Source: Oligoflexia bacterium
GTDB taxonomy: Bacteria > Bdellovibrionota > Bacteriovoracia > Bacteriovoracales > Bacteriovoracaceae
Assembly (NCBI GenBank): GCA_015232015.1
Contig: JADGAM010000014.1
Span: forward strand, 1-46,263
DNA: 46,263 bases
Reading direction: 5' to 3'
Each line of letters opens with the position of its first letter. Position 1 is the stretch's first letter. Below the pieces are notes generated by a model, which was not told the DNA's origin, did no database searches, and saw only the letters and a list, made by a program, of their open reading frames with translations. The translations under genes were made by a program, and so were the position numbers. Shown piece by piece: positions 12,347 to 46,263 of this stretch.

Positions 12347-13372
12347 CTACCAACTTTTGAACTTAATTTTCTTAGGTCCTTCAATAATCCTTCTAAAAAT
12401 TTCAGCTTCATCATAAATGCCACAAAAATTTTCTGCTCTGGCACCGGTGGCCAGCACTAAACCCATTAAAGAAGATTTATGGTAGAAGTTTGGTTGTCCT
12501 GTCTTTTCAAATTGAATCCAATCTTTTCCACCATCAGGAAATTCGAAACTCCAAGGAGAGGAGGAAGAAAGTAAAAGAAGGACTTTTCCTTTTAAATCAG
12601 TCTTATTTAAAAAATATTTATATGTTTTTTCAATTTCAAGCAAAACTTCTCGGGCCCCTTCCAAATTCTTTTTTTCAAGCGCTTTTAAGTATGAAACATC
12701 TCGGACTAAGAAAAAATAACGATTGTTATTTTTAATGAAGTTTTCAAATAAATATTCAACGTTTCTAGAGAGACCACTATAACATTCATTCTGCTGACAG
12801 GCCTTATCGTAATAAATTTTACTCTTTGAAAAGCTTTTTTCTTCTTGAAGATGAAAACTTTCCATTCCTTTTCTTTCTGCTTTTGCCATTTTCCATAATA
12901 TTAAATCCTGTAAAAAATCTTTTCCTTTTTCTCCACATTTTAGTGCTTTCTCAAAACTATCATTTTCATTTACACCAACTTCAAGCATAGCAGTTTCATA
13001 ACCATTATCTGTTAGATATTTCCAAATAGGTGAATAATTAAAATCGCTGCAATTATCTTTGATATTTTTTTTGCCAATTAATTCCATTGTTTGAGATATA
13101 AAAGCATTAGGTCTTATCTCGTAAAGAGTGTATGTCCAAGTTTTACCCAAGCATTGAGCAGATTCGAAAGATGTTTTTTCAAATACTGTTGGCATGTAAA
13201 ATCTAAGCATCGCTAAATGTTCTTCTTGTAGACCGGCGACCTGAATCCAAATTATCTCTGTTGGAAGTGCTCCATAATTGTGCTCTCTTAAATTTAGTGT
13301 TCCAAAGCGCATGCAACTAAAAATATTTGTAAGGATTAATATAGTAAAAATTAAAGTAATTATTTTATTCAT
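12347..13372 (-). CDS. Hypothetical lipoprotein
   Basis: N-terminus IITLIFTILILTNIFSC (lipobox-like). Confidence 0.6.
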   Translation of the reverse strand: MNKIITLIFTILILTNIFSCMRFGTLNLREHNYGALPTEIIWIQVAGLQEEHLAMLRFYMPTVFEKTSFESAQCLGKTWTYTLYEIRPNAFISQTMELIGKKNIKDNCSDFNYSPIWKYLTDNGYETAMLEVGVNENDSFEKALKCGEKGKDFLQDLILWKMAKAERKGMESFHLQEEKSFSKSKIYYDKACQQNECYSGLSRNVEYLFENFIKNNNRYFFLVRDVSYLKALEKKNLEGAREVLLEIEKTYKYFLNKTDLKGKVLLLLSSSSPWSFEFPDGGKDWIQFEKTGQPNFYHKSSLMGLVLATGARAENFCGIYDEAEIFRRIIEGPKKIKFKSW

Positions 13373-13376
13373 ATTA

Positions 13377-14099
13377 TTATTTGATACCCTCCTGATTTTC
13401 TAAATCACTCATGTAATTTGTTATCATGAAAAAATTGATCATTTGAAACAGAAATAGATTTGAAAAAAAGATTGCGATTAGTGCTGGCCAAATGAATGAA
13501 TTGATTTTTTTAATTTCTATTATTTCTCCATTCGCAAGCAAAATAAATATAAATGCAAGAAGAGCTAATGTCCAACTAGTAAAAGCATTTCTATATGCCA
13601 AACGCCATTTTATTCGATTAAAGTAAAGTGCAAAAAGAATAATGGATAAGACTGCAAATTGAATTACAAAAATATAAGCTGGTTTAAAGAAATATAAATT
13701 GTTACCAAAATGGTAGATGCTATAACCTATCAATGCTCCTAAAATAGGTATTCTAATTAATAATCCTTTGTTTTTGAAAGAGCGTCCTTCGTTAATTACT
13801 AATGCAACAATAATAAAACTCAAAAGAGAAAACCAAGCAAGTCCATACATCCCAACCAGGATAGAGCTCCAATTATTGATTGTTATTATTGTTAAGAGAG
13901 AAGAAGGTAGGAAAAATATATATGAACATAAAAGGAATAAAATAATTCCAGCATTCCATATGAATAAATAACGTTTTAGAGGAGGGAGTTTAATAGAGTT
14001 GGTAATTGTGAAAGCACCATATTGTTTAAAATACGATACAAAATAGTATAAAAATGTTAATAGAAATAAGGATATGATAAACATCATAAAAATCACCAT
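13377..14099 (-). CDS. Multi-pass integral membrane protein
   Basis: Repeated hydrophobic segments along the 240-aa ORF; adjacent to the lipoprotein on the same strand. Confidence 0.65.
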   Translation of the reverse strand: MVIFMMFIISLFLLTFLYYFVSYFKQYGAFTITNSIKLPPLKRYLFIWNAGIILFLLCSYIFFLPSSLLTIITINNWSSILVGMYGLAWFSLLSFIIVALVINEGRSFKNKGLLIRIPILGALIGYSIYHFGNNLYFFKPAYIFVIQFAVLSIILFALYFNRIKWRLAYRNAFTSWTLALLAFIFILLANGEIIEIKKINSFIWPALIAIFFSNLFLFQMINFFMITNYMSDLENQEGIK

Positions 14100-39740: not shown

Positions 39741-40169
39741 TTATTTAATTTTTATTTTATTTAAATCGTGTTCAACAAACTCAATAATTCGTTGAACTTT
39801 TTCAAACGATTGGTCAGAGGTGATTAATTCTAGATTTTGTTTTATGATTTCTTTCTTTGATGTGGCCTTAGTGAATTCAAAAAACAATATCTGAATAATT
39901 GTCTTCCCTAAAGCTATAGTATCACCAAATTTAATTTTTTTATGCCCGGTAGTTTTTTTATCGTTCACTAAGTAATTTGCAATTTTAGGATTTTTTTTTG
40001 CCATTAACCCCTCTTCAGAAATTTCCAGCAGTAGATGGGAGTTTATTATTTCAGGGTCGGTTATTAGAATATCACCAGAGCTTTTGCCTATTTTTATAAA
40101 ATTTTTGTTGTACTTATATTTTCCGATAGCTTCTTCGTCTGGAGAGGAGATGATATTTATTTCAATCAT
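39741..40169 (-). CDS. FHA-domain protein
   Basis: FIKIGKSSGDILITDPEIINSHLLLEISEEG...YLVNDKKT; ATG overlaps the upstream stop (ATGA). Confidence 0.7.
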   Translation of the reverse strand: MIEINIISSPDEEAIGKYKYNKNFIKIGKSSGDILITDPEIINSHLLLEISEEGLMAKKNPKIANYLVNDKKTTGHKKIKFGDTIALGKTIIQILFFEFTKATSKKEIIKQNLELITSDQSFEKVQRIIEFVEHDLNKIKIK

Positions 40170-40714
40170 GGATATTCTTTATATTCTACACTTTCGATTT
40201 CATATTCTATTTTTCCCTTTGGGGCATCAACTATAACGGTATCGCCTTCTTGCTTGCCAATCAAAGCTTTGGCCAAAGGAGCAGTAAATGGAATTTTATT
40301 TGGGCCATCATTATGAGCTGCCGAATTTGATGTCGATGATTTCATTAGCGCTTCGTCAGTTCCTACAATTTGCTAAAGAATACTTTTTTCTTTTAATAGG
40401 TCATATAGGGAAACAGTGGCCCCGAATCTTATCTTTGGGCCTTTTAAGGTGGAAACATCAATTACCTGAGCAATACTAATGTTATATTGTAATTCCTTAA
40501 TCTTTCCCTCTGTTAAACTCTGTTTTTCCTTGGCAGCATGATATTCAGCATTTTCTCGCAAATCTCCCATGGCCCTGGCCTCCGCTAGGGTCTCTTTTAT
40601 TTTTTCACGCTCAACTTTAATCAGGAATTCAAGTCTCTCCTCGAGCATTTTTTTACCAGCTAAGGTCATGGGAGTTGAAGTCATTATGGGAGTAGAGTTG
40701 TTAGGTTTATTCAT
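40166..40714 (-). pseudogene. greA: GreA/GreB-family elongation factor interrupted by an in-frame TAG (40373..40375)
   Basis: N-part AGKKMLEERLEFLIKVEREKIKETLAEARAMGDLRENAEYHAAKEKQ; after the TAG the same frame reads QIVGTDEALMKSS...IPFTAPLAKALIGKQEGDTVIVDAPKGKIEYEIESVEY. Confidence 0.85.
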
Positions 40715-40720
40715 GTAAAT

Positions 40721-41011
40721 TTATTTTTTAAATATTGAATCGGCTGCGTTATATATTGCGTTTTTATCTTCGTCTTTATCTGATCTACCTGTGGTCACTC
40801 GAAAACTATTACAAAAATTTGCATTTTCTTTTTCAATAACTCTTTCGGCCATTATTTCTCTGCATTCGTTATAGGTATTGGGATCATAAAAATCACACAT
40901 CTTACAACAGCGAACAGCAGAGCGGCAGTGAGGGCATTCCTCACTTCTGGCCACAGCTCTAGATTCATCTCTTTCAAAATTCTTTTTACAATTATAGCAT
41001 AAAATTTCCAC
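40721..41011 (-). CDS. Cysteine-rich zinc-ribbon-like conserved hypothetical
   Basis: CYNCKKNF...CPHCRSAVRCCKMCDFYDPNTYNECRE...NFCNSF. Confidence 0.7.
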   Translation of the reverse strand: MEILCYNCKKNFERDESRAVARSEECPHCRSAVRCCKMCDFYDPNTYNECREIMAERVIEKENANFCNSFRVTTGRSDKDEDKNAIYNAADSIFKK

Positions 41012-41089: not shown

Positions 41090-41854
41090 TTAAACATCTT
41101 CAGGAATAAACAAATCTTGATCACAGGTCTTCGCAGATGCTGGATTATAATTATCAATTACATAACGTAAAATATCATATTCATGGTATCCTAATTTTCT
41201 TCCAAGAATAATGGCCTCACGGGCATCTTCAATAGATGATTCACGAAATAAATTGGGGTTGGTAAGACGTAATTTTTCTCTTACTTTTAGCGGGCAATTA
41301 TAAGGGCCTGGTCTAAGCATACTGTAGGATTGAACTTTTATGGTACTTTTAGCAAATTTTTCTTGTCTGTCTTTTTCTACGCTTTCTGTACCCCGAACTT
41401 CACCATTAGCAGCTGTAACCGGTCCAATGCAACCTCTGTTATATTCTACTAGAGGAGATTTAAAAAGTTTAATAAATGTATTTATGGCCCGAACCTCTTC
41501 ATTGTAGTCTGAATTAATTGAGGCCGGTTGTGTGCGAGGATGATTATCTGACCAATCAATATTTAGATCTGGTTGTTTGGCATCATCCCACTCTTTTCTT
41601 GTCATGGCCCAAGGGGCCTTCGTAGCAGTTTTTGCTTTTTCAGCTTTTATCTCTTCTGCCTTTGTATCCTTAGGGACAACCTTTTTTAATTCATCACTTG
41701 CATAACCAATATTTATAATAGAAATGGAAAGTGTAATGAAATAAAAAAAGATTAAAACTAAATTAAAACAATTTACCCATTTATTTTTCTTAATATTACA
41801 ATTGTCCATATTAATTTCTCCTAGGTTATTTTTTTGTCTTAATAATAAATTCAT
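41090..41854 (-). CDS. Secreted hypothetical protein
   Basis: Hydrophobic N-terminal segment (CFNLVLIFFYFITLSISIINIGYA). Confidence 0.55.
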   Translation of the reverse strand: MNLLLRQKNNLGEINMDNCNIKKNKWVNCFNLVLIFFYFITLSISIINIGYASDELKKVVPKDTKAEEIKAEKAKTATKAPWAMTRKEWDDAKQPDLNIDWSDNHPRTQPASINSDYNEEVRAINTFIKLFKSPLVEYNRGCIGPVTAANGEVRGTESVEKDRQEKFAKSTIKVQSYSMLRPGPYNCPLKVREKLRLTNPNLFRESSIEDAREAIILGRKLGYHEYDILRYVIDNYNPASAKTCDQDLFIPEDV

Positions 41855-43145: not shown

Positions 43146-44903
43146 ATGGATATTATTAAAACTGGCATCGATTTGACTAAAACCATAAAGAATGTCTCTA
43201 GATTGAAAGAGATTGTTTCCGTGCTCGCCAGAAATGGTTTTTATGAATTTATTATTAAGACCGGCATTCATGAAAAAATTCCAGGTTTTGTTTTACCTTC
43301 TTCAACTTTGAAAGATATTGAAAGTGAGATTGCTGAATTAGATTTAGAAAATAGTGGAACTGGAAGGGATTGGAAAAAAAATAGTTGGGGTAAAATTGTA
43401 GGTAATAGATTAAAAAAAGCATTTGAGGAACTGGGTCCTACCTTCATCAAGTTAGGACAGATATTATCCTCTCGAGAAGACATGTTTAATAGTGCTTTCA
43501 TTGAGGAAATGAAAAAATTATTAGATCAAGTTAAAGGGATTCCTTTTCAAGAGGCAAAAACTGAAATTGAAAAATCAATTGGAAAAAAAATAGAAGAGGT
43601 TTTTAAAAATATTGATCAAGTACCTATAGGGAATGCCTCTATCGGAATAGTTTATAAAGCAGAATTACTAAACGGCGAAAAAGTTGTTATAAAAATAAGA
43701 AGACCTAACATTGAAAAAATTATTAAGATAGATATTTCAATATTATTATTTTTAGCAGAAAAACTAGAATCGGCAAGTGGAGAGATTAAACATTTAGGAT
43801 TATCAAGAATTATTGATGATTTTGCAAACACCATACATAATGAACTTGATTTTAATCTTGAATGTTTGAACTGTGAAAAACTTACTGCAAATATTACAAG
43901 GCTTGACCCGGAATCAATTTTTCATTTACCAAAAATGTATAAAGAGTATGTAAAGGAAAATTTGATTGTGATGGAATATTTAGATGGGATATTTTTTAGT
44001 CGTACCCAGGAGATAAAACCATATATAAAAATTATCGAACCAAAATTACTAAAAGGAGTGAAAATATTTGTTAGTTGTTTATTAGATGATGGTTTTTTTC
44101 ATGCAGATTTACATGGAGGAAATTTTTTATTTTTAAAAAATCAACAAATAGGAATTATAGATTTTGGTCTTGTAGGAAGCATGCAAAAAAGAGGGAGAAT
44201 AAATTTAATTTCCATTCTATATGCTCTTGTTACTTATGATTATGAAAACTTGGCATACGAGTTTTTAGAGGTTGCGGAATATGGAAAAATTCCAGATATT
44301 GATGTGCTTTCAATAGATATAAAAAGATGTGTTGAACCATTTGTTGGATTAACTGTTAGACAAATGAATTTCACAAAGATTATTGGAAGTGTGATAAAAA
44401 CTTTAGCAAAGCACGAGATATACTTGCCAAAAGATTGGTTTATAGTATTTAGGGCCTTAATGGTTTTAGATGGCGTAGGTCGTTCACTTAATATTGATTA
44501 CGAAATATTTGCCTTGTTAGACGAGAATGTAAGAGAAAAAATAAAAAAGGTTTTATCCTTCGATGAATTATCAAAAGATGGAATTTGGGGGCTTAAAGAT
44601 TTAAGTTCATCTTTAAGAATGATACCCAGACAATTAAAATGGTTTGTAAAAGAATTTGCTAAAAGAAATTATGCAATAGATATTAGACTTAAAGGACATG
44701 AAAAAGATTTGGCAAAGCTTTCAAATGCTATTATTTTTGCTGCCTATGCTTTTTTAGTAGGAATTTTTATTTTTGCTGGAATTTATGTTTTAGAAAAAGA
44801 GGTTACTAATGGTAGGGTCCATATTACAACATTAACAATTATTTTATGGTTAGCGGCATTGGCAATCTTTCTTCGAGGAAGAAGCTACATCAAAAAAAAG
44901 TAG
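43146..44903 (+). CDS. AarF/ABC1/UbiB-family kinase-like protein
   Basis: GPTFIKLGQILSSREDMF (KxGQ), EKVVIKIRRPNIEK, FFHADLHGGNFLF, GIIDFGLVG; C-terminal TM segments. Confidence 0.93.
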   Translation: MDIIKTGIDLTKTIKNVSRLKEIVSVLARNGFYEFIIKTGIHEKIPGFVLPSSTLKDIESEIAELDLENSGTGRDWKKNSWGKIVGNRLKKAFEELGPTFIKLGQILSSREDMFNSAFIEEMKKLLDQVKGIPFQEAKTEIEKSIGKKIEEVFKNIDQVPIGNASIGIVYKAELLNGEKVVIKIRRPNIEKIIKIDISILLFLAEKLESASGEIKHLGLSRIIDDFANTIHNELDFNLECLNCEKLTANITRLDPESIFHLPKMYKEYVKENLIVMEYLDGIFFSRTQEIKPYIKIIEPKLLKGVKIFVSCLLDDGFFHADLHGGNFLFLKNQQIGIIDFGLVGSMQKRGRINLISILYALVTYDYENLAYEFLEVAEYGKIPDIDVLSIDIKRCVEPFVGLTVRQMNFTKIIGSVIKTLAKHEIYLPKDWFIVFRALMVLDGVGRSLNIDYEIFALLDENVREKIKKVLSFDELSKDGIWGLKDLSSSLRMIPRQLKWFVKEFAKRNYAIDIRLKGHEKDLAKLSNAIIFAAYAFLVGIFIFAGIYVLEKEVTNGRVHITTLTIILWLAALAIFLRGRSYIKKK

Positions 44904-44941
44904 TTAGTTAGTCGCTGGCGCAAGCGCCGGCGACTAACTAA
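44904..44941 (-). terminator. GC-rich 18-bp-stem hairpin between convergent genes, with U-tract on the minus strand
   Basis: TTAGTTAGTCGCTGGCGC-AA-GCGCCGGCGACTAACTAA; minus-strand transcript continues into CTTTTTTTTG. Confidence 0.8.
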
Positions 44942-45783
44942 ATGCTATCGAGACCTGAAATAAAGATGGGTTTACCATAATGTTTCCATTCAGAAAGAGG
45001 ATTTGGTCCAAAAATAAATGTTAAGAATTTTTCAATCGTTTCAAAGTAAATTTGTTTGTTGTAGGTGAAAGTAATATTATTGTTATTTATTGATTTAATT
45101 TTAATTTCTTCATTGGACCATTGGTGGATAAAGTTTAAAAATATTTTTTTATCTCCAATTTTAATTAATCCCATATATTTTTTCTCAAATTTAGCGTCAA
45201 AGAAATTAGTGCTACCACTTTCTGGCAACCAAATTTTTGCATGTGGATTTTGTTCAAAAATAATAGGTAATATGGAGCTTTGATGTTCATTTAATATAGC
45301 AAATTCGTGGACAACGTTTTTTAAATCTTGACCTTTGTTAGCAAAATAATAAGCAACAATTTGTGAATCTGTACTTTGTTTTTGATTTTGAATATTCGTG
45401 ATAATGAACAGATCTGCTGAAGTAATTTTTTCTATTAATTCCCAATCTGTTTTCTCTCTGTGAAAGGTAGTGTATTGCTGTTCAATTATATTTCTATATA
45501 ATTCATGAATCTGCTTTTTTTCTGAATGAGAGATACTTTTGTAAAGTGTTTTAGTTATTAAATAGTGATTATTGTGATTTTTTTTTGAATCTGATTGAGA
45601 GCAAGAATATTCTATTTGTCCGATAGACAAATGGAAATCAAATTTATTGTAGAGATCAATTAAATCACTCCAGAGTAAAAACATAGCAATATTTTTAGTA
45701 TACTTATCAAAGATATGATTTAATAATATTTTAGAGAGACCGATATTCCTAAATTCTTTTGAAACAACAATTCCTCTGAGCAT
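44938..45783 (-). pseudogene. C-terminal portion of a GNAT-like acetyltransferase (beta4 onward); N-terminus of the predicted ORF is out-of-frame flagellin leader
   Basis: MLRGIVVSKEFRNIGLSKILLNHIF (GNAT motif A) with nothing before it; residues upstream (MVWPARVSRRISWDFVLILISPQS) are the +2 frame of a flagellin 5' region. Confidence 0.75.
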
Positions 45784-45820: not shown

Positions 45821-46141
45821 GATATCCTCCTTGATACGCGGGCGGGCCAGACCATCCTAGTCTTAGCAAAAGATTAAGTTTACATATACATTAAAAGTTT
45901 TTTGCTTTCATTGAGTGTAACTTATCTTCACACAAATCATTTCGTATAAACAAAAAAAAACTTGAAGAAAAAAATAAAAATTTTTGATTTTTTAACAAAA
46001 AAATATTGTATTTCTTGTAAATTTAACAAGTTATATGCGTAAAAATATTGTAAAATATTTTTATAATAAAAAATAAATTTTATTGTATTTTGTAAAACAA
46101 TATAACAGTAACTTAAATTCCTCTCCCTAAAAGCTTTGATA

Positions 46142-46263
46142 ATGGAAAATATAAAAATTTCTACTTTAGATACTGTTCCTCATTTAGCAAAGGCGGTTAT
46201 TAATCTTATAGAAGATTCTTTTCACTATGATTCCAATAATAATTTTGAAATAGATTTTGCTCC
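46142..46263 (+). CDS. Start of a GNAT-like protein, truncated by the window end
   Basis: ATG open to the end: MENIKISTLDTVPHLAKAVINLIEDSFHYDSNNNFEIDFAP. Confidence 0.5.
   Translation, partial: MENIKISTLDTVPHLAKAVINLIEDSFHYDSNNNFEIDFA

Follow-up and report, generated by a model that had tools for sequence, protein, structure and literature searches.

Bacterial secondary-channel factors bind RNA polymerase through their C-terminal globular domain and insert their coiled-coil into the secondary channel (PMC4598747). Loss of the Gre factors is tolerated by E. coli; Mycoplasma and Streptococcus pneumoniae, in which GreA is the sole factor of this type, need it or are very sick without it (PMC4598747). 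A stop codon inside such a gene can be compared with two kinds of described system, namely the recent nonsense pseudogene and programmed UAG readthrough of the UAG-CAR-YYA type. As for the efficiency of UAG decoding, E. coli reporters showed a mean TAG readthrough of less than 1% at each of the temperatures tested (PMC11126739). The greA homologue described here carries one in-frame TAG, and the reading that accounts best for our results, and probably the correct one, is an ordinary chromosomal greA with a very recent single nonsense codon.

The gene lies on the minus strand (40714-40166) of the window, i.e. the whole stretch of 46,263 nucleotides that was analysed, which corresponds to contig C55. 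The assembly is a draft of 4.9 Mb in 413 contigs, with an estimated completeness of 84.7% and an estimated contamination of 2.6%. Translation of 40714-40166 gives a single in-frame TAG at 40375-40373, preceded by 113 codons and followed by 68 sense codons and a TGA (...DLLKEKSIL*QIVGTDEALMK...IEYEIESVEYKEYP*). The original prediction had placed one TAG at these coordinates, at a conserved Tyr, and our analysis agrees; its figure of 69 codons after the TAG is correct if the TGA is counted, but not as a number of sense codons. Both domains of a GreA transcript-cleavage factor are recognised. The part upstream of the stop (40376..40714, minus strand) is the N-terminal coiled-coil domain, matched by PF03449 (GreA_GreB_N) with E 1.7e-23 and 83 bits (cut-off 24.5); it is 83% identical to the ortholog in G001, a genome of the same genus that served as the main reference, and its best named matches are in Bacteriovoracaceae and related draft genomes. 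The part downstream of the stop, in the same frame (40166..40372, minus strand), is the C-terminal domain, matched by PF01272 with E 3.1e-13 and 50 bits (cut-off 26.9). Termination at the TAG would leave a product with the coiled-coil domain and without the C-terminal one, as had been predicted. What sets the locus apart from a typical GreA gene is that the TAG (40373-40375) stands between the start of the C-domain and its remainder, so that the two-domain product is not encoded without interruption, and that the C-domain linker is expanded. This Ser/Asn-rich linker, which follows DEALMK (40298..40339, minus strand), is in frame and is the sole length difference past the TAG in the alignment. 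A low-complexity Ser/Thr/Asn linker in the C-domain is a genus-level trait of GreA: compared with other relatives it is 6 residues longer in G001 and 12 residues longer here, i.e. 6 longer than in the G001 ortholog.

The gene has the same neighbourhood as in the same-genus genome. In G001, greA (G001:C13) is intact, has TAT at the site and lies among the same genes, a small Cys-rich gene, greA, an FHA-like gene and a hydrolase, and in the family member G020 the gene order around greA appears to be the same as here. Upstream of greA, the small Cys-rich gene (40721..41011, minus strand) is a conserved neighbour with 90% identity in G001 and matches no Pfam family. Downstream, the terminal TGA of greA shares an ATGA with the ATG of the FHA-like gene (39741..40169, minus strand), an overlap that had been predicted and is seen in the translation. 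The FHA-like gene is syntenic in G001 and matches PF16697 (Yop-YscD_cpl, an FHA-type domain) with E 3.6e-7, which is under the curated cut-off. A 254-aa ORF (41090-41854) that separates the small Cys-rich gene from the conserved gene beyond it lacks an equivalent at the corresponding position in G001:C13. A search of phage records with the greA region gave no match.

The codon in relatives, a comparison proposed with the original prediction, is clear. Tyr occupies the TAG position in 101 out of 114 aligned greA-type genes (51 TAC, 50 TAT); the other residues are Phe in eight genes, Ile in two, and Val, Trp and Lys in one each. A stop is found at this position in none of the 114, and none of the other Gre matches in a search of 58 related genomes is interrupted by an internal stop. 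The prevalence of Tyr and the absence of stops indicate that a genuine greA frame has been interrupted once, and that we are not dealing with a chance open stretch. From the aligned sequences the TAG appears, as far as visible, to be private to this sequence. Apart from the TAG there is no lesion in greA, and the downstream half is open and constrained: pN, the share of amino-acid-changing sites at which this genome differs from G001, is 0.120 before the TAG and 0.121 after it. We used pN alone and did not rely on dN/dS ratios, since synonymous sites between the two genomes are near or past saturation. Equal pN values on both sides point to a stop that either arose very recently, is an error or is read through, and mean that any loss of constraint is recent. 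According to a rough Poisson calculation, in which the branch of this genome was given a length of 0.5 to 0.94 synonymous substitutions per site, constraint is unlikely to have been lost for longer than some 10-15% of that branch, which starts at the split from G001. Relaxed constraint past the TAG is not visible, as expected for a very young lesion. A fresh null, one of the options raised in the original prediction, fits these data: past the TAG the gene is under as much constraint as before it and bears no additional lesion.

TAG is used as a standard stop in this genome. Release factor 1 (RF1) is encoded on C406 (485 bits; cut-off 423), and TAG terminates 51 of the 318 ORFs with 100 codons or more in about 400 kb of sampled sequence. 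The G001 sample contains counterparts of 24 TAG-ended genes; 23 of these genes end where the counterpart does, and greA is the sole exception. One candidate for a discordant TAG end, C222:37646-38338, was rejected; read by eye, it ends at the residue equivalent to that of its G001 counterpart. RF1 and the 23 concordant genes thus bear out the earlier view that genome-wide recoding is unlikely. No tRNA gene with a CUA anticodon, for which a search had been suggested, is among those located by ARAGORN; a CUA tRNA pattern gave six matches, compared with five in a reversed control, and none of them is a tRNA by ARAGORN. The tRNA set of the draft is incomplete, so a missing CUA tRNA is no proof.

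Could the UAG nevertheless be decoded often enough, through a leaky context or a suppressor tRNA, to give useful full-length GreA? The constrained half past the TAG and the absence of any other Gre gene from the assembly are what one would expect of such decoding, but RF1 is present, the TAG is common to no relative, a CUA tRNA was not found in the incomplete tRNA set, and mean readthrough in E. coli stays below the level cited above. The likeness to programmed readthrough of the UAG-CAR-YYA type consists of the long open frame and the CAA that follows the UAG. To this extent the predicted resemblance to the leaky context stands; it does not extend to the next codon, as the 3' context is TAG CAA ATT and ATT is not YYA. 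Further differences from such systems are that the stop is not conserved, that the RNA 3' of the TAG folds no better than its shuffles (z +0.94) and that the stop-terminated product lacks the docking domain. Suppression and programmed readthrough, both listed in the original prediction, find no support in our data, and we regard useful decoding of the UAG as quite improbable. Regulated readthrough as the way in which the bacterium makes its sole Gre factor, with transcript-cleavage capacity set by termination efficiency, seems extremely unlikely. If the TAG were read through, this would be a rare example from a bacterial chromosome. It is also very unlikely that the 113-residue N-domain, alone or together with a re-initiated C-terminal fragment, serves as a functional short form. 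The N-domain is intact and an ATG lies nine codons past the TAG (40345-40343), but this ATG has no obvious ribosome-binding site before it, and a fragment starting there would miss the start of the C-domain, the domain by which such factors bind RNA polymerase (PMC4598747). None of the 58 related genomes has a short form, and the C-domain is without decay, which leaves little time for adaptation to one.

A more serious competitor, although we still consider it unlikely, is that the organism's greA is intact and the TAG results from a sequencing, consensus or strain-mixing error in the draft. The TAG is one base away from the Tyr codons, downstream decay is entirely absent, and the assembly is a draft with the contig number and estimated contamination given above. 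In addition, the adjacent codon is altered as well: directly 5' of the TAG there is Leu here and Thr in the two nearest relatives in the alignment, G001 and G020, which makes a local cluster of changes. On the other hand, when about 400 kb of contigs were compared with parts of G001, only greA among some 90 comparable genes had a convincing internal stop; this indicates that the assembly is not rich in errors, although an isolated error is not to be judged in this way. Most of the other internal stops flagged in that comparison were discarded, as they lay at alignment ends where the start or end of an ORF was over-extended. The region 12347-14099 was rejected as a second lesion: its second ORF has a separate start and an N-terminus that looks signal-like and lipoprotein-like, and so reads as one of two genes. 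Here these are adjacent membrane-protein and lipoprotein-like ORFs, and in G001:C3 their place is taken by a single 587-aa ORF, which is either a fusion or a frameshift in G001.

We return to the very recent nonsense codon. With known recent nonsense pseudogenes the locus shares the one stop, the otherwise intact gene and the intact ortholog in a close relative, and we found no difference from them here; the TAG base is taken from the draft consensus. If the base is real, translation would stop at the TAG and yield a product of 113 residues. This would comprise the N-terminal coiled-coil, the part that extends to the active centre of RNA polymerase, but not the C-terminal domain, which docks on the enzyme. 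Having lost the docking domain and kept the coiled-coil, this product should be inactive or weak, and greA would consequently be null or strongly weakened. Termination about 200 nt before the ATGA overlap may also reduce translation of the FHA-like gene. Two findings speak against a null: no other Gre gene is present in the assembly (about 85% complete), and downstream decay is not visible, which a base error would explain too. In the 84.7% complete draft, this greA locus is the only match to either Gre domain. A second greA or greB had been named as something to look for, and the assembly contains none, with the reservation that the draft is incomplete and that G001 carries a greB elsewhere in its genome in addition to greA. 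A search with the G001 greB protein returned the greA locus only. The DNA around G001 greB likewise led to no greB in this assembly; the nearest region, on C71, is weakly similar, so that loss of greB and a missing contig are indistinguishable. How surprising a greA null would be depends on whether the organism has a DksA, or a greB that the assembly lacks. If the stop is real, greA would have been lost naturally in a Bacteriovorax-like lineage in which no other Gre gene is seen, and this would be a small data point on the dispensability of transcript cleavage. A text search of the literature for greA pseudogenes in draft genomes found none. As the evidence stands, the TAG is a single nonsense codon of an ordinary kind, found in a single draft genome.

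Some features near the end of the contig are to be noted. At 44899-44946, between the ends of two convergent genes, there is a strong inverted repeat with 23 nt arms (87%) set 2 nt apart, which is probably their shared terminator. The contig end itself (45839-46263, plus strand) is similar to G001 C13:22757-23035 and to the N-terminus of C13:21577-22743, and the counterpart of the remainder of C13:21577-22743 lies on the minus strand at 45792-44941. Such an arrangement would be explained by a local inversion, a second copy or a chimeric contig end.
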